A stretch of DNA of 64,000 nucleotides from a virus. Location: the IMG/VR virus record IMGVR_UViG_3300009320_000008, positions 1-64,000 of that record, one strand, 5' to 3'. Positions 13,424 through 31,390 of the stretch are shown piece after piece (the stretch's first letter is position 1; the number at the start of each line of letters is the position of its first letter). The position numbers and the translations under genes were made by a program. A model generated the notes under the pieces. The model searched no databases and was not told where the DNA came from. It saw only the letters and a list, made by a program, of their open reading frames with translations.

Positions 13424-15517
13424 TTAAAATGAAATATCATCATTCTTGGTTCCTGATTTGCAAGCTAACAAGGTAGCACTTGTGAGTCCTGCCCTACCAA
13501 TATACATGAAGGAATCAAAAAATAGAGATTGTATTTTGAATAGGCGCATGGACTGTGCCATCGTTGTATCCTCATTCAACATTATCGCCTCAATATAATT
13601 GAGGATTCCCCTCCTTGTTTGCTCGGCATCTCCACTGAAGTTATTCAATGCCTTTCTTGCTCTTTCCCATTTGTGATTTCCAGAAGTTGAAGGGTCGATA
13701 AGAATCTTGACAAGATCCTCTGTTTGTCTTCCCCCTGTGCTGATCATTTGCAATGCTTCAATGGCAACTCGTGGGTCTTCGATGTCAATCACCTCGTCCA
13801 GCATCTTTAAAGCCTTACCAGGTGATCCATTTGACATGAGTGTTATTTCTTCAAGGACGGGTCTGAGTGGTTCTAATCCTTCTGCTCCACATATGTCATG
13901 CAACAGGGAGAGCAGTTCCCCACGAACAAGGGGTTTCGGTTCATATTGATGGCTTCTACGTTGGATAGCTTCTCTTAATATAGGCTTTATGATTTCCATT
14001 TCAGCCGTTGCCAATATGAAATGAACATGGGCTGGAGGTTCTTCGAGACTGGTGAGAAGGGCGTTCCATCCATCAACCGTGATCTTGTGGCAATTATGCA
14101 CCATAACATTATTGGCTATATACGAATGATCCTTTTCTATTTCTAAATCATAAAATTCTATAAATCCTTTATTTCTTTCTTTATCTTTGATAACACTTTG
14201 GAAAGATTGGTCATTACTTCCTCGTTGGTAAATCTCAACACTTTCCACCCTAATTCTTTCAGTCGATCCCCTTTCTTTTTGTCTAATGATATTTGTTTTT
14301 TTGTTCTGTGACCTTTCCCGTCCACTTCTACTCCCAACATTAGTTCTATGTTCGCTATATCCAATTTGTAATTTTTTGGATAACCTTTTCTCCATTTCCC
14401 CAATCCCACAGCTACTTCCATCGGCCATCCCAAAGCAGTGGCTAAAAGTATTTGTGGTTCTGTAAAATGTCCGTTCCCTCCACGTTTTCCTTTCCAAATA
14501 TGAAGTGATCCATTCAACCGCTTTACCTCTAACATTTTCTTTATGTTTTTTTTGTTTTTCATTGGGTTTTTGGTCTTCATTCGAATAGATCTTTTCAAGC
14601 GGAGACTTTTTGATTCTTCCGAATCTGAATTCCAAAATCTTTTTAAGGATGTTTTTTGCTTTTCTTTGGTTGATTGGGAATAGACTTTCTTTCTGAATTC
14701 CCCTTGGAAATTTCTCCATTTCCCAACACATTTTTGAGAGCAGAAACGATGTCCAATCGATCTTATTCCCAAAAATGTTTTCCCACAATGTTGGCATTGC
14801 ATTGGATTTCGTGTTTTGCATTCCAAACAGTATAAAGCGTTCCATGATTTTGGACAAAATTCTTTTTGGCATCCTTGACAAATAATCATTGATTTTAGTA
14901 TCCTTTTGTGAATTTTTGTTTAGCATTAATTCACTATCATAGCAAACCAATTCATGTTTGTCAAGAAATATAGCTTTTTTCCAACCATTGTCAGTATCAA
15001 ATTCATGTTCCTTAGAACAAAACATTGAACTTCCATTAGAAAAATTCAATCTAATAACACGATCAAGAGGAACTTTGTTTATGAATTTATTTTTTACGAT
15101 ATCAATTCCCTGCCTATTGAAAACAGACTCTCCCACCTCTATTTTTTCAATGGGAACCAATCCCTTTTTTACAGTTGTGATAGGTGTTCCTTTTGCAAAA
15201 CATTCATCGAAAAAATACGCTTTCTTCTCCCCATGAGCAGGGGCATAATGAGAGTCGGTAATGACATCACGGATTGTATCTATACCCCTTGTGTTGGCAG
15301 TGTTGTAGGCGTAGAAATCAGCATCATGGATGCTCAATGCATTTTGGATGATACGAGCTAAGGTTGTCTTCCCCGTTCCCGGACGGCCTGTGAAAAGAAA
15401 GGTTGAGGGGATTTTGTCAGGATCCCTTGCTAAAACAAGACCCAAAGATTCTACCAGGGCATCATTTCCATAAAATTCATCAAGACTCTCCGGCCTATAC
15501 GTAATGTGCAAGGGCAT
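13424..15517 (-). CDS. Clamp loader AAA+ subunit interrupted by an intein
   Basis: 697 codons. YRPESLDEFYGNDALVESL and Walker A GRPGTGKT (residues 44-51) mark an AAA+ clamp-loader (RFC/DnaX-type) subunit. The Walker B reads YFFDE, then an intein of 370 residues (106-475), then CHKITVDGWNALL, so the mature motif is FFDECHKI. LEEPPAHVHFILAT follows, with the sensor 1 region. After splicing the host protein would be 327 residues, normal for phage clamp loaders. It should load the sliding clamp at 20514-21542. No separate small subunit was recognised. Confidence 0.93.
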   Translation of the reverse strand: MPLHITYRPESLDEFYGNDALVESLGLVLARDPDKIPSTFLFTGRPGTGKTTLARIIQNALSIHDADFYAYNTANTRGIDTIRDVITDSHYAPAHGEKKAYFFDECFAKGTPITTVKKGLVPIEKIEVGESVFNRQGIDIVKNKFINKVPLDRVIRLNFSNGSSMFCSKEHEFDTDNGWKKAIFLDKHELVCYDSELMLNKNSQKDTKINDYLSRMPKRILSKIMERFILFGMQNTKSNAMPTLWENIFGNKIDWTSFLLSKMCWEMEKFPRGIQKESLFPINQRKAKNILKKILEFRFGRIKKSPLEKIYSNEDQKPNEKQKKHKENVRGKAVEWITSYLERKTWRERTFYRTTNTFSHCFGMADGSSCGIGEMEKRLSKKLQIGYSEHRTNVGSRSGRERSQNKKTNIIRQKERGSTERIRVESVEIYQRGSNDQSFQSVIKDKERNKGFIEFYDLEIEKDHSYIANNVMVHNCHKITVDGWNALLTSLEEPPAHVHFILATAEMEIIKPILREAIQRRSHQYEPKPLVRGELLSLLHDICGAEGLEPLRPVLEEITLMSNGSPGKALKMLDEVIDIEDPRVAIEALQMISTGGRQTEDLVKILIDPSTSGNHKWERARKALNNFSGDAEQTRRGILNYIEAIMLNEDTTMAQSMRLFKIQSLFFDSFMYIGRAGLTSATLLACKSGTKNDDISF
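14093..15202 (-). mobile_element. Intein in the clamp-loader Walker B (DE/CH)
   Basis: Cys1 begins block A as CFAKGTPITTVKKG, then VPIEKIEVGESVFN. The block B-like region holds SKEHEFDTDNGW. The C-terminal blocks are FYDLEIEKDHSYIANN and the terminal VHN followed by Cys+1. All splice-junction residues (Cys1, penultimate His, terminal Asn, Cys+1) are present. The middle about 230 residues resemble no nuclease in this frame, but the same bases encode one in another frame (14158-14889). Confidence 0.93.
14158..14889 (-). CDS. DUF559/Vsr-like homing endonuclease nested out of frame in the intein
   Basis: 243 residues from an ATG with AAAGGA about 11 bases upstream; the frame is +1 relative to the intein. 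The N-terminus is Cys-rich (CQGCQKEFC, CLEC, CQHCGKTF, FCSQKC), suggesting zinc ribbons. A NUMOD3-like KTKNPMKN follows. The C-terminal domain has LMLGVEVDGKGH, KGDRLKELGWKVLRFTNEEV, matching DUF559/Vsr-fold nucleases used as homing endonucleases. It lies wholly within the intein coding region. It is probably translated alone and cuts intein-less clamp-loader alleles. Confidence 0.85.
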   Translation of the reverse strand: MIICQGCQKEFCPKSWNALYCLECKTRNPMQCQHCGKTFLGIRSIGHRFCSQKCVGKWRNFQGEFRKKVYSQSTKEKQKTSLKRFWNSDSEESKSLRLKRSIRMKTKNPMKNKKNIKKMLEVKRLNGSLHIWKGKRGGNGHFTEPQILLATALGWPMEVAVGLGKWRKGYPKNYKLDIANIELMLGVEVDGKGHRTKKQISLDKKKGDRLKELGWKVLRFTNEEVMTNLSKVLSKIKKEIKDL

Positions 15518-16343: not shown

Positions 16344-18974
16344 TCATAATTTATATTCCTTTGTTTCATACCAACTTGCGTTTATAGGGGCTACCTCATG
16401 TTCTATCTCCAAAGGTACGTTGATCCACGGAAAAACTTTTCTGACCTCTACGGTCCCAAAATGATCGATAGTTTCTATCACCCGTTTTAATTCTGACGGA
16501 TGTGTATTATGTATCATACAGTCATGTATTTGTCCCATCAACTTACTTTTCCATGATTCTTCTTTGGCAGTTCTAACAACCTGTATAATAGTCCACAGAA
16601 GAATATGGAATGCCGTTCCCTGTGTTTGATAGTTCGTACATTGGTTATAGGTCATATAGCCTTGGAATCTGAATCCCATATGACTATCGATGAATCCCAT
16701 TGACCTGTATTCTTCGTTGATCTCGTCTTTCCATTTATTATACGTAGGAAAGCGTTCGTTCCAAAATTTGTTTTCGTACTTTTGGCAGTGGTCTACAAAT
16801 GAATCAAAGCTTACAATTCGCATCCGAGTCATATGGTCTTTGACTCTGTATCCCTCCCGAATTTCAAGATCCATACAGTTTTCCCACAATGTTTTGGCGC
16901 ATTCTTTATACCATGATCCATAAAACTGTGGGAATACCCAACAATTCTTACTATAAAATCGGATCATCTTTGTAACTTCGTCCAAAGCGAGAATCCAAAT
17001 GTCGGATGCTGTATCTCTATGCATGTCGGTATTGGGATCTGTTACATATTTGATAAGGGCAGGGTCTTTATGGTAGCAACAACTCGTGCCGACCTCTACT
17101 CCACTGAAATCACTCTCTACAATTTGAAATCCTTCATAAGGCATGATGCCGGATCGTGTTAGTTTCTTTGCTTCTGGATCACGTTTTGGAATGTTTTGTT
17201 GATTCGGGTCATAACTTGAGGATCGAAAGCTGACCGGGATATTTAGGGCTATTGATGGGTGCATGACACCATTTATGGATGCTTCCAAGAATTGATTGGG
17301 ATAGGATATAACCTTACCCCATCTCCTTAGCCTTAAAACATTCCGTGTAAATTTGATGTTGATCTTTTTTAGGACTTCCTCATCGATTGACCAGTTCCCC
17401 TTATCTGTCTCCTTTGTTGGGGTGTGTTTAAGAATGTCGAACAGGATGATTTTCAAATGAGTTGGAGATATATCTTTCTCAACCTTTAAATTTTTTCCCG
17501 TATGCTCGTAGAAAAGAATTGCTTCCTCACTTTCCTCAAGGTCTTTTTTTACCTTCTTCATCTTTTCCACAAGATCGAGAATGGTTTTTGAATAGTATTC
17601 CGTGTCAGTAGGAATTCCGTTCATTTCCACGTCTGCGAGGGCAAGCGTACCTTCATGAAACAAGTCGTATGCCTCATAAAAGCCGGGGTTTTGCTCAAAT
17701 ATTGGAGTTTGACGATCAGCTAACCACAATTCATAGAGAGAATCCTTTCCCCCATACTTTAGTAATGAGTCAAGAGGACAGTCCATAATTGTATTGAACG
17801 CTTCTCCTGACTTAGCTTTCAGATAGGGATTTACAATTTGATTGTATGGAAACAATCCAAAGTTTAACATGATTTGAAAGTCAAGGGAGGTGATGCCTGA
17901 TCTGTTGTCAATGATATGGGAGGCCAACATTGTATCCCACTCCCATTCTTGAACTTCAACATCGAGGATCATCTTACTCCAAATATGTTCGAACTTGATA
18001 TTTTGAGCTATCTTGGAAATATTTTTGGCTTCAAGGATTTGACACCACAGGTCTTTAATTTGGTTTTGCTCATCCTGTGTGAAATGTCCTGCGTATTGAT
18101 ATGGAAATGACCATGCTGTTTTTTCGCCATTCGTTCCAGTGCAAGCAACACTTATGGTTGCTATTTTATGTCCTGGAATGTATGGTTTTATTCCAGTAGT
18201 CTCATAATCGAAAACAATCTCCGATTTATACCATAAAATATGATTAAGGATATCTATGACTTCATCGAATTTGTATAGGATACGAATGTCTTCCTCTGGC
18301 AGTTCTGGAATCTTATCTCCCTTTCTTACAAAGTCAAGGGCATAGTCCAGATCCCTTTCGAAAACTGACAGAAGGTTTTTGTTATTTTCATCACGAGAAG
18401 GATAAGAAGGATGAAACAAGGGCATTACCCATGCATTAAAACGTTTGTCGGGAATACGAAACCCTCTCCATTTTGTGATATTAAGATGCTTCCCTTCCAT
18501 TTCTTCTGCATACAGGGATTTTAAAGCTACACCTCCAAACACAAATATATATTCCGGTTTTAGCTTTTCTATTGTGTCAAACACTTTGGGACGGCAACAG
18601 GCTATTTCGTTATCGGTAGGAGTTCGATTCTTTTTCGTACCTGGAGTTTTGCCTTCCTCCCAAGGCCAGCAACTAATTGCATTGACTTTCCAGAAATCTT
18701 TGTCCAGATTGTAACCCCTCATCCTGAGCTTCTTTCTGAACCATTGTCCTATCTCTCCTTTCAACTGTTCTCCGAGTTCGTCTTCCGTTCCACCACTTGC
18801 TTCGAGAAGGATTAAAGTCTTTAGTTTTCCTTCACCTGTTACTTCCATTTTTGGGGAGAAGCATGTTCTATACAGACCACATTCAAGGCACTTCGGCCCG
18901 TCACTTGTAGCCCGAAAGTCAACACGGGTCTGGTCTTGCATTTCTTCAAGATCAAAGAATCCGGATTGTTTCAT
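16344..18974 (-). CDS. Family A DNA polymerase with N-terminal uracil-DNA glycosylase domain
   Basis: 876 residues. The N-terminal 215 residues resemble family 4 uracil-DNA glycosylases: Cys 29, 32 and later SCWPW and ACCRP for an iron-sulfur cluster, LEASGGTEDELG at the active-site loop, and HPSYPSR. A 3'-5' exonuclease follows (IVFDYETTG, NIKFEH, GGKDSLYEL). The polymerase has motif A SDFSGVEVG, motif B RFYSKNCWVFPQFYG and motif C QIHDCMI. SPO1 polymerase has a similar N-terminal domain. Should be the main replicative enzyme; the glycosylase part may remove or sense uracil. Confidence 0.93.
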   Translation of the reverse strand: MKQSGFFDLEEMQDQTRVDFRATSDGPKCLECGLYRTCFSPKMEVTGEGKLKTLILLEASGGTEDELGEQLKGEIGQWFRKKLRMRGYNLDKDFWKVNAISCWPWEEGKTPGTKKNRTPTDNEIACCRPKVFDTIEKLKPEYIFVFGGVALKSLYAEEMEGKHLNITKWRGFRIPDKRFNAWVMPLFHPSYPSRDENNKNLLSVFERDLDYALDFVRKGDKIPELPEEDIRILYKFDEVIDILNHILWYKSEIVFDYETTGIKPYIPGHKIATISVACTGTNGEKTAWSFPYQYAGHFTQDEQNQIKDLWCQILEAKNISKIAQNIKFEHIWSKMILDVEVQEWEWDTMLASHIIDNRSGITSLDFQIMLNFGLFPYNQIVNPYLKAKSGEAFNTIMDCPLDSLLKYGGKDSLYELWLADRQTPIFEQNPGFYEAYDLFHEGTLALADVEMNGIPTDTEYYSKTILDLVEKMKKVKKDLEESEEAILFYEHTGKNLKVEKDISPTHLKIILFDILKHTPTKETDKGNWSIDEEVLKKINIKFTRNVLRLRRWGKVISYPNQFLEASINGVMHPSIALNIPVSFRSSSYDPNQQNIPKRDPEAKKLTRSGIMPYEGFQIVESDFSGVEVGTSCCYHKDPALIKYVTDPNTDMHRDTASDIWILALDEVTKMIRFYSKNCWVFPQFYGSWYKECAKTLWENCMDLEIREGYRVKDHMTRMRIVSFDSFVDHCQKYENKFWNERFPTYNKWKDEINEEYRSMGFIDSHMGFRFQGYMTYNQCTNYQTQGTAFHILLWTIIQVVRTAKEESWKSKLMGQIHDCMIHNTHPSELKRVIETIDHFGTVEVRKVFPWINVPLEIEHEVAPINASWYETKEYKL

Positions 18975-24647: not shown

Positions 24648-24961
24648 ACCTCCTCCATCCTGCATGAGTCATTATCAATATAAAGATCGGCTCGAAACTT
24701 TCCCATAATTAGGTAATGAAACATGACTTCGTGTTCCATAAGCCATTCTAAGGTCGATTTATATCCCTCCCAAGGACGGGCGGTATAAATGACAACATTA
24801 TTGTATTTGGCAAGGTTGTTAACCTTGTCTATATTCTCTTTGATTGGAATCATTTTTGGATAGTATAAATGAAAGTCCATCCATTCTATTATTCCTTCTG
24901 GAGCTGTGCATAGGGTTTCGTCCAGATCAACAGCTATGCTTTTTCCTTTTATTTCATCCAC
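24644..24961 (-). CDS. HAD-like phosphatase
   Basis: 105 residues. AVDLDETLC holds the nucleophile Asp and the general acid Asp (DxDxT), YTARPWE supplies the Thr of motif II, and KFRADLYIDND the late Lys and acidic pair. This is a minimal HAD fold of the kind found in phage nucleotide phosphatases. Located between amidotransferase-QueC and queC, it may act on nucleotides of the modification pathway, but the substrate is unknown. Confidence 0.8.
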   Translation of the reverse strand: MDEIKGKSIAVDLDETLCTAPEGIIEWMDFHLYYPKMIPIKENIDKVNNLAKYNNVVIYTARPWEGYKSTLEWLMEHEVMFHYLIMGKFRADLYIDNDSCRMEEV

Positions 24962-26567
24962 TGTTTAATTCCTTCACGAATGATAATAGCTTTTCCTTTG
25001 CACTGTCGGGTAATTCAAGACGGGAGATAATATTGCTGACTGAAGCAGTTTTAACCTTCTCTGCCATCTTGGGACGTTCCCTCAGTATTCCTCCAACATC
25101 TGCAAACTTTCGTTTGTCCTCAACTCCGGCTCTATCTGCGGCAATCATGGACAGTTTGGTACTACCACAATATGTGCAAAGGATATGATGTGAGTAAAAT
25201 GTTACAGGATTGTCACAACTGATTGTATGTTCAAATGGAAATATCATTGCATCCCCAAGCACCCATGCCTCTGTCTTGGTAATGTTTCGCATGACCGGCA
25301 GGAATTTGATATACTCCCCTGTAATCGTCCCGTACTTTCGCATCATATCTATGGCCTCCGCGAATTGAAAGGAGTTGTCAGGGTAGCCTCCCGTCTCCTC
25401 TGACAACTGCGCCCAACCAGCGGCAATATATACCTCATTTACATTTTGGGATATAAGGTACGTCTCCGCACAGGCCAATAGATACGATGTGAAAATGGCA
25501 TTCCTGGCTGGAACCCATGCAATTGTGGACTTGATATTATCTCCTCCGCTGTCAATCTTTATGTCTGAATCTGTAAGCATTCCATTCCCTGAGAAATGCA
25601 TGAACTGGTCTGTCAAATCAAATTCAAACATCTGGATGCGGAGTGCTCCACTCAGAGTTTGTGCTGCCCACCTTTCTGCTGATTCTGCTTTTTGTCCGTA
25701 TCTGAAGTGTATCATAACAGGTTCATATCCAGAATGCTTCAATATGTAAGCTGTTAATCCACTATCGATGCCTCCAGAAGCAGAAACGAACACCCGTTTT
25801 TTCTTGGCGGGTTGAGGATTTTTGAATGTGGGATGAATGAAATTGGGGGAGTAGGTTTGCTTGTGCTGCATTCCACTGTCTAAATCGGTTTCGATGATGG
25901 TGTATCCTTCAACGTAATGATGATACCAGTTCTCCCATACGTTCATCCCGTCTTTGCGGCATCCGGTCATGCTATACAGGGCTTCTTCCAATGCATCATT
26001 GTCCGAATGCATGAAGTATCCAACACCTTTTACATACATATGAGCAAGAGGATTGAAAGATGTTACCGCATACATCTTATTTTTGTTTCGATCTATCATG
26101 ACAAAGGCAAACGAACCACTTAGATATTCCATGGTTCGTTTCATGTCCCTACCCTGCTGTTCGTATGCAGCAAGGATAATCTCGGAGTCGATTTCAGTAG
26201 CATAATTAAAAGATAATATACGAACGGATTCTGTCACTCCTCCATTATGAATAAGGAATTTGCCGTCACTAAAGATGGGTTGTAGCATACTCTTATTCGT
26301 AGATTTTTCAGTTTCGGGAGTAGCTCTGCTACAGAACAAAAGGACATCCCCAACGTTCATGTATTCTTTTATCCATAATATAATTTCTTCCACTTCTATC
26401 TTTTTTGGATTTAAGATCCAATGGGAGGAAGGAATCCCATCTCCATCACATACTATGCAAGCCCCAAATCCATCTTGTCCTCTCTTACCTGCCTCTAAAA
26501 TAAGAGTTTCAAGGGTTTTAAAATTTGGGATTGATTCCCTTGCCCAGAACGCAAATATTCCACACAT
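24954..26567 (-). CDS. Glutamine amidotransferase class II-QueC fusion (Gat-QueC)
   Basis: 537 residues. MCGIFAF places the nucleophile Cys2 of class II amidotransferases; SRATPETE, IHNGG (about 106-110) and GSFAFVMID follow. A QueC-like domain starts with the PP-loop SASGGIDS (262-269), then WVPARNAIF. Gat-QueC proteins make archaeosine in tRNA of some archaea and are linked to archaeosine-type bases in phage DNA. Here it probably converts the DNA nitrile left by DpdA to an amidine. The usual fourth zinc Cys is missing (LCTYCGST), with His-His nearby. Confidence 0.9.
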   Translation of the reverse strand: MCGIFAFWARESIPNFKTLETLILEAGKRGQDGFGACIVCDGDGIPSSHWILNPKKIEVEEIILWIKEYMNVGDVLLFCSRATPETEKSTNKSMLQPIFSDGKFLIHNGGVTESVRILSFNYATEIDSEIILAAYEQQGRDMKRTMEYLSGSFAFVMIDRNKNKMYAVTSFNPLAHMYVKGVGYFMHSDNDALEEALYSMTGCRKDGMNVWENWYHHYVEGYTIIETDLDSGMQHKQTYSPNFIHPTFKNPQPAKKKRVFVSASGGIDSGLTAYILKHSGYEPVMIHFRYGQKAESAERWAAQTLSGALRIQMFEFDLTDQFMHFSGNGMLTDSDIKIDSGGDNIKSTIAWVPARNAIFTSYLLACAETYLISQNVNEVYIAAGWAQLSEETGGYPDNSFQFAEAIDMMRKYGTITGEYIKFLPVMRNITKTEAWVLGDAMIFPFEHTISCDNPVTFYSHHILCTYCGSTKLSMIAADRAGVEDKRKFADVGGILRERPKMAEKVKTASVSNIISRLELPDSAKEKLLSFVKELNSG

Positions 26568-29782: not shown

Positions 29783-31390
29783 CTATTTGACTTCTTTCAG
29801 ATCGATAAGTTTATGGAGCTGTGTGTTAATAACCACCTCGTGGAGATTGTGTTTATTCAGCTCTTTTAGGATGTCAGGAACGCTGATATCCGCAAATCCC
29901 GTATTTACCGGAGATATTGCCATCCTCGCCGCAAGTCCCATCCCATTAAACATTTTTATTTTATTGATGGCAAAATCAAGGTCATTATTCCCATCTACTA
30001 CAAATTTAACGAAATCCTTATAGTTTAGTTTCCTGACGAAATTTAACCTGCCTATTACATAATGAGCCATTCCAGAACTTGGACATTTATAATCTACCAC
30101 CCAATTGGCAGCTAATGTGGGAGGAATCCATGTTCCATTTGTTTCAATTGTGACCACAATATTTTGTCCCGCAAGTTTTGAAACAAGATGTGCGACCTCA
30201 TCGATTTGAAGGAGAGGCTCACCTCCTGTTATAGTCACTTTGGCCGTTCCAAGTTGCATGATTTGATCAAAGACCTTTTTTACAGGGGTTTCGGTTCCTG
30301 AATCAGGAGATTGTGCGTACTTGGTGTCGCAGTTATGCACCCACATATAATCTACAAGATAAGAATTATATGGAAAGCATGATATGTTCCACACTTTTAG
30401 TGGTTTTGGGCGGGTTGAAGGCGGATAATCATTTCTATCTATATGTTTTATTTCTTCTACTTTATACCCGTTTAATGCTGTCAGTCTGTTTCTACTTTTG
30501 ACGGAAAGGTTCTTTCCGTCTTTTCTTTCTCCCCTCCAAAAACTATATCCTCTTTTATGAATCTTGTTATGACAAGGATAACAAGAAATAAGGAGGTTCT
30601 CCCAATCATCATTTTTCTTATCTGCGTCTTTATGATGGACACAACATTTTATATTGGTCTTCCCACACTCTTTACATGTATTTATTATTCCTTTCTTGCA
30701 CAGATTTTTTAGGTAATTATAATTTGTATTTATTCCCCCTCTCCAATTCGGATTTTTATCACCCATCATTTTAAGAGATAATTTCTTTTTTGTTTCCTTA
30801 TACTTCCTCTCAGATAAAGTACTAAAGGGATGTAAATAAATGCCTTGTTCCTGTTTTTTCTTAATGCTTGATGATATTTTTATACCTATTTTTTTATAAT
30901 CTTTTCCCTTCCCTGATTTCCGTGCCACTCTGGGATCTTTCATTGGGTTTCTTTCGCCCATTTTTGAGAATGATGCTTTTTGATTTGGGGATGAATGAAG
31001 GATCATATCTCCTATTTTTAAATTTTTGGTTTTAATCATTCCCTTAGTTGTGAAAAACGGATGCTCCTCCGTCACAAAGTAGGACACACCATTTATTTTC
31101 AACCTAAACCAAGAATTGACCTCTCTCGTAATTACCTCTTTTACTTCTGTTTCAACAAGGTTTTTGTTTTCATCAAAAGTCATTAACCAATCCCCAACTT
31201 TCATATCCATCAATTTTTTATTGGGAACTCTTGACGTTATTATTCTTGGAATTTTTCTTCCATTTATAATTCCAAAACAATAGGCGCATTTGATGTTACA
31301 TCCCGCAAGTCTTACAAATACAGTTTGCGTTCCTTGTCCATACCAATTAACTTCCCCATCTATCGATTTGAAAATGCTGAAAACGTTCAT
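29783..31390 (-). CDS. queE: QueE (7-carboxy-7-deazaguanine synthase) interrupted by an intein
   Basis: 535 codons. FKSIDGEVNWYGQGTQTVFVRLAGC is the QueE start; the radical SAM motif CNIKCAYC is split by an intein before its third Cys (Cys 31, 35 and 354 in the precursor). After the intein come CDTKYA, VTITGGEPLLQ, TIETNGTW and VDYKCPSSGM, all QueE motifs. Spliced size is 219 residues, normal for QueE. The enzyme makes carboxy-deazaguanine from the QueD product. The next gene upstream is queD, so the step order matches gene order. Confidence 0.95.
   Translation of the reverse strand: MNVFSIFKSIDGEVNWYGQGTQTVFVRLAGCNIKCAYCFGIINGRKIPRIITSRVPNKKLMDMKVGDWLMTFDENKNLVETEVKEVITREVNSWFRLKINGVSYFVTEEHPFFTTKGMIKTKNLKIGDMILHSSPNQKASFSKMGERNPMKDPRVARKSGKGKDYKKIGIKISSSIKKKQEQGIYLHPFSTLSERKYKETKKKLSLKMMGDKNPNWRGGINTNYNYLKNLCKKGIINTCKECGKTNIKCCVHHKDADKKNDDWENLLISCYPCHNKIHKRGYSFWRGERKDGKNLSVKSRNRLTALNGYKVEEIKHIDRNDYPPSTRPKPLKVWNISCFPYNSYLVDYMWVHNCDTKYAQSPDSGTETPVKKVFDQIMQLGTAKVTITGGEPLLQIDEVAHLVSKLAGQNIVVTIETNGTWIPPTLAANWVVDYKCPSSGMAHYVIGRLNFVRKLNYKDFVKFVVDGNNDLDFAINKIKMFNGMGLAARMAISPVNTGFADISVPDILKELNKHNLHEVVINTQLHKLIDLKEVK
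30332..31279 (-). mobile_element. Intein with HNH endonuclease in QueE
   Basis: Residues 38-353 of the precursor (316 residues). Cys1 starts CFGIINGRKIPRIITS. Block B-like EEHPFFTTKG and the end VDYMWVHN before Cys+1 are intact. An in-frame HNH nuclease lies in the middle: CKECGKTNIKCCVHHKDADKK, NLLISCYPCHNKIHKRG; an NPMKDPRV piece before it resembles a NUMOD DNA-binding motif. It should splice itself out and home into intein-less queE genes. Confidence 0.95.

Follow-up and report, generated by a model that had tools for sequence, protein, structure and literature searches.

The textbook intein is either one chain with a built-in endonuclease or a split pair. In the 'fractured genes' reportedly described by Dassa et al. 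in 2009, the endonuclease is free-standing, and resides between two separate intein halves. In ordinary bifunctional inteins the endonuclease is a domain fused in frame to the splicing domain (PMC3943268). An endonuclease hidden out of frame has been described in the ShiLan element, where an HNH enzyme is encoded within an insertion of a phage methylase, and the host frame is stop-free (PMC11855218, 2025). Searches of open papers for an out-of-frame endonuclease overlapping an intein found only ShiLan-type cases without an intein; subscription journals or databases may contain one. The locus analyzed here resides in the virus record IMGVR_UViG_3300009320_000008 of IMG/VR, positions 1 to 64,000 of which (64,000 nucleotides) are referred to as the window. 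It is a phage clamp-loader gene interrupted by a continuous intein, and the intein DNA contains, in another frame, a second gene. Very probably the element is an intein that splices in cis, and the overlapping gene is translated on its own to give the homing endonuclease.

Two reading frames in the clamp-loader intein

The features of the locus are the following.

13424-15517, minus strand: DnaX-like phage clamp loader, precursor of 697 amino acids (aa); single open reading frame (ORF) and profile matches
15203-15517 and 13424-14092, minus strand: N-extein and C-extein of the clamp-loader precursor
14093-15202, minus strand: continuous intein, 370 aa, from Cys1 to the terminal His-Asn, followed by Cys+1; splicing motifs and Pfam Intein_splicing
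14918-15202, minus strand: N-terminal part of the splicing fold (AlphaFold2), intein residues 1-95, outside the nuclease overlap
14270-14905, minus strand: linker of the intein frame (residues ~100-311), predicted to be disordered, with a predicted local distance difference test score (pLDDT) of ~50; most of the nuclease is encoded by these bases too
14162-14269, minus strand: dual-coding stretch, intein residues 312-347 and nuclease residues ~207-242; recoding test and both predicted folds
14093-14157, minus strand: C-terminal end of the intein, 3' of the nuclease stop, with the conserved YDLEV..H.Y.A...VHN
14158-14889, minus strand: gene for a putative homing endonuclease of 243 aa, nested entirely within the intein in its +1 frame; Pfam DUF559
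14901-14906, minus strand: Shine-Dalgarno (SD) sequence AAAGGA, 11 nt ahead of the nested ATG (14889)
14936-14964, minus strand: tentative sigma70-like promoter match (TTGACA-17-TATGAT, 11/12, TG before the -10), located 47 nt ahead of the nested ATG

The precursor matches the PHROG clamp loader (E 2e-43), NCBIfam dnaX_nterm, and Pfam AAA and DNA_pol3_delta2. The intein is inserted in the Walker B motif (FFDE/CHK, the slash marking the site), and the splice junctions read FFDE/CFAKGT and VMVHN/CHKIT. In the AlphaFold2 model pLDDT measures ~96-98 at residues 1-80 and 321-370, and is 78-89 by residue 100. The model features a Hint fold, matching in Foldseek the gp41-1, DnaB and RecA inteins; gp41-1 is the closest solved intein by both Foldseek and sequence/profile search. 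Residues C1, H66 (the block B His), H369 and N370 are invariant, or almost so, across 51 inteins, and residue +1 is Cys or Ser.

The nested protein features a zinc-finger-like N-terminus and a nuclease domain of the DUF559/EDxHD type. Its match to DUF559 (PF04480) has an E value of 3e-12 and scores 46.7 bits, against a curated cut-off of 20.6; the profile is also matched by 45/45 family members tested. The nuclease is modeled with a mean pLDDT of 93, and its best Foldseek match is the catalytic domain of I-Bth0305I (3r3p; E 2.7e-3, prob 1.00, TM score by target 0.62), an enzyme matched also by sequence profile (hmmsearch, E 0.001). NGO0050 (3hrl) is likewise among the nearest relatives in profile and fold searches. 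E188, D190, H194 and D203 are conserved in the nuclease family, and are candidate EDxHD catalytic residues. SD sequences of at least 5 nt precede 38% of the first ATGs of nested genes family-wide, against 5% of internal ATGs. Internal promoters upstream of the nested genes show no clear family-wide enrichment.

Both frames are open. In the window no intein-frame stop is found over 214 nuclease codons, against 10.5 expected by shuffling of synonymous codons (0/400 shuffles were open), and the third frame contains 23 stops. A preliminary description, made from the letters of the DNA alone, had read the intein as one through-going chain with normal splicing motifs, and within it, shifted by one, a 243-residue DUF559 frame with its own start and ribosome site, two long frames thus staying open. 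The 697-aa ORF with its Intein_splicing and clamp-loader AAA matches, the PF04480 match, the SD placed 11 nt ahead of the ATG and the stop counts bear out all of this.

A family of loci with dual coding and stop avoidance

Relatives were gathered by nested-nuclease scans of viral contigs and genomes, and by tblastn in cultured phages; the Pseudomonas phage nuclease, used as a query, retrieved no relatives. In 84 loci the nuclease is enclosed by an uninterrupted ORF, always in one relative frame; 72 of these loci are non-redundant at 85% nuclease identity. Left out of the 72 are L022, L045, L053, L065 and L084, with stops within the region or beside it, L008, whose nuclease is deleted, and the truncated L034; in L053, L065 and L084 no recognisable continuous intein surrounds the nuclease. 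Five further nested members were identified by a separate scan with an intein alignment. Both splice junctions could be placed automatically in 67 loci. The host genes of these are mostly helicases (41; ResIII, DEAD, SNF2) and DnaX-like clamp loaders (21), with few others. Insertion is almost always in Walker B, at DE/C or DE/S, with the flank consensus GA.GA./TG.cA. Cultured members are found in Corynebacterium phage phi673, Pseudomonas phage MR14, and Vibrio phages CP-T1, 159E43-1b and 1.088.O.

Nuclease identities among the 72 non-redundant loci range from 23 to 78%. At face value the nuclease tree contains 3 switches from one main host class to the other, at least one of them on well-supported branches. 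Nuclease distances correlate with those of the non-overlapped N-part of the intein (r 0.43, p 0.001). No in-frame fusion of DUF559 and intein was seen among the relatives, the nuclease being always in the +1 frame.

Nested members occur also in bacterial genome contigs (L085, in the Ktedonobacter racemifer chromosome, L086 and L087), perhaps as prophages. In L065 (1-435, 336-2189) a related endonuclease gene is apparently free-standing just upstream of an intein-less helicase; the contig begins inside the endonuclease gene. L084 (2962-3683, Polaromonas glacialis) is a free-standing relative, with a vestige in the intein frame that resembles an intein C-part (VEGVEVLERG...VNDFEV) and has two stops.

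The number of stops expected by chance was estimated for each locus by shuffling synonymous codons within the nuclease. Over the nuclease core, intein-frame stops are 0 in every continuous locus, against about 3-17 expected per locus; 30 free-standing DUF559 genes have stops in about the expected numbers. Codons ending in T before AA, AG or GA number 0/3545 in nested genes, against 2465/8035 in the exteins of the same host genes and 334/1437 in free-standing DUF559 relatives.

Constraint on the intein protein was measured by a recoding test, in which each nuclease was recoded synonymously without new stops, and the conservation of the intein frame was compared with expectation. Over most of the overlap the z values are near null (about -2 to 3.5). 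They rise to 14.9, 13.8, 7.2 and 9.2 in the final ~45 codons of the nuclease, and values of 5-8 occur in some few columns close to the 5' end of the overlap that only part of the loci possess. In the reverse test the nuclease frame is conserved throughout, the dual-coding stretch included. AlphaFold2 folds this stretch confidently in both frames: a strand (316-324) and helices (331-345) of the predicted splicing domain share codons with the nuclease C-terminus. In four mini-inteins (L142, L144, L147 and L008; L008 and L143 are one record) most of the nuclease is gone, but the dual-coded 3' part is retained. Over this part L142 has a stop in the nuclease frame and an open intein frame. Conservation of the intein frame in the middle of the overlap (e.g. 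an invariant Leu-Gln) was also considered as a sign of intein function, and rejected, as it is mostly imposed by the nuclease frame. The middle of the intein had been called meaningless in its own frame. This does not apply to the whole overlap: most of it is predicted disordered, with conservation close to what the nuclease frame imposes, but its last ~36 codons are part of the predicted splicing fold.

Near-identical alleles without the intein exist, and therefore the element looks mobile. A clamp loader from a different sample (L148) is 90% identical to that of the window, and has no intein. The helicase gene of phi674 is ~99% identical to that of phi673, minus exactly the 906-bp intein, and at +1 it has GTG (Val) where phi673 has TGT (Cys). 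Similarly, Vibrio phage 138 is missing precisely the 1059 bp of the CP-T1 intein, with Ala in place of Cys. Where the intein-bearing helicases have Cys at +1, the near-identical empty alleles carry Val or Ala (L118/L151, L120/L152), as if the mobile unit brought its own splicing nucleophile codon. A putative intein in the phi673 helicase, absent from phi674, had been noted by the phi673 authors (PMC6132909, 2018); it is a member of the present family, and the passages found of that paper make no mention of a nested gene.

Proposed mechanism and alternative explanations

In a cis-splicing intein with a separately translated endonuclease, frame 1, read through the clamp-loader gene, would supply a Hint domain made of intein residues ~1-95 and ~312-370, out of which a disordered stretch of ~210 residues would loop, and cis-splicing would join the Glu and Cys of Walker B. 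Frame 2, the +1 frame relative to the intein, would be expressed from its own SD and ATG as a free homing endonuclease of the EDxHD/DUF559 type. The enzyme would cut intein-free alleles near the conserved DE/CH-coding site, and recombination would copy the whole unit in. Because the last nuclease codons also encode a strand and a loop of the splicing fold, neither gene could be freely lost or moved.

Some points weigh against this explanation. Splicing, translation of the nested gene, cutting and homing are all inferred. The exact catalytic residues of the nuclease are only candidates, and part of the nested genes have no recognisable SD or ATG. The null model of the recoding test ignores shared ancestry; the middle of the overlap, near null, serves as an internal control.

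The nuclease might be made only as a fusion to the N-part of the intein, by programmed frameshifting and without a start of its own. A single shift just upstream would link the two, and the SD is weak in some nested genes. This is disfavoured because most loci have a nuclease-frame stop no more than 60 nt upstream of the first nested ATG, which leaves very little room for the shift, and SDs are enriched at the nested ATG. Such exclusive fusion is unlikely.

Equally unlikely is that the arrangement is a passing or decaying stage in the formation of a split intein. Split inteins are recognized by two separate ORFs; a single continuous ORF is found in the window and in the 84 loci, the possible exceptions being L022 and L045. 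L022 (3111-3113) has one in-frame stop and a possible later ATG; in L045 (2991-3010) a stop just inside the nuclease gene is followed by ATGs. These two may be split forms or broken copies. The prevalence of continuous over interrupted loci (84 against 2), their conservation over deep divergence with both frames constrained, the constant register in the 72 non-redundant loci and the 3' end locked by dual coding argue against a passing state. The preliminary description had suggested a comparison of continuous and split relatives, which is that just given, and had offered an overlapping gene in a continuous intein as either a new variant or an intermediate of splitting: the overlap is strongly supported, and the intermediate does not serve as the principal explanation. 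Intein splitting may still start from the overlapping state, as the stops in L022 and L045 would allow, on thin evidence. It is tentatively proposed, as a possibility short of an even chance, that inteins with an overlapping gene form a lasting third architecture next to the fused and the split kinds, in which common codons tie splicing domain and homing endonuclease to each other. One intein-frame stop would then generate a split intein plus a free endonuclease, and such inteins would be the source of 'fractured genes'.

Very unlikely is a group I or group II intron, or a translational bypass, within the intein, which would keep the intein frame from being translated at all across the nuclease. 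EDxHD endonucleases are known in group I introns (I-Bth0305I; PMC3943268). No Rfam match was found across the region, however; an untranslated intein frame would not be selected for stop avoidance, and the overlapped 3' part is conserved intein, folded in the model. Finally, although single-base indels often cause apparent frame shifts, an ordinary in-frame endonuclease thrown out of frame by sequencing errors is excluded for practical purposes, as an identical gene is found in an IMG/VR record from a different sample (L001), 84 loci, cultured phages included, share the register, and the stops expected in the intein frame are absent.

Comparison with known systems

If the overlapping-gene explanation holds, two unrelated folds share codons across ~36 residues, and a linker of ~200 residues seems to be held stop-free only to let the host protein be made and spliced. 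The pair would be a natural case of overlapping genes with a clear division of labour. The overlap would explain why decay does not easily rid the intein of its endonuclease, and it suggests a concrete path by which split inteins might arise. Endonuclease genes would also be going unnoticed within phage genes annotated as helicases or clamp loaders. Phages phi673 (with the element) and phi674 (without it), both growing on C. glutamicum, are a cultured pair on which direct testing is possible.

The window contains a second, apparently ordinary intein, in the queE gene (29783-31390, minus strand). The insert (30332-31279) matches PT-HINT, has an HNH-like middle in frame, and interrupts the radical-SAM CxxxCxxC motif (CAY/C...VHN/CDTKYA); other frames contain 30-32 stops, and no long ORF. 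Near queE, at 24954-26567 (minus strand), a QueC domain is fused to a glutamine amidotransferase-like domain, and the phage likely has a DNA modification pathway of the deazaguanine type. The DNA polymerase A gene (16344-18974, minus strand) encodes an N-terminal domain of the uracil-DNA-glycosylase superfamily within the same ORF.

The present elements resemble part by part the 'fractured genes', reportedly gp41-1-type split inteins with EDxHD/Vsr-like endonuclease genes: the intein is nearest to gp41-1, the nuclease in structure to the EDxHD enzyme I-Bth0305I. They differ by an unbroken intein, part of whose codons serve the nuclease as well. I-Bth0305I has a similar nuclease fold; in contrast, it is encoded in a phage group I intron, and overlaps no intein. 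Canonical bifunctional inteins (PI-SceI type, with LAGLIDADG or HNH enzymes) are alike in having a Hint domain, an endonuclease between its N and C parts, and mobility. In these the endonuclease is in frame (PMC3943268), whereas in the present family it has its own overlapping gene in the +1 frame. The ShiLan element shares the out-of-frame endonuclease within an insertion and a host frame without stops, but its enzyme is of the HNH type, no splicing domain and no detectable ribosome-binding site are present, and the disordered insert stays in the host protein (PMC11855218). The family described here features instead a complete Hint domain in the host frame, a nuclease of the DUF559/EDxHD type, SD sequences, and a dual-coded 3' end.
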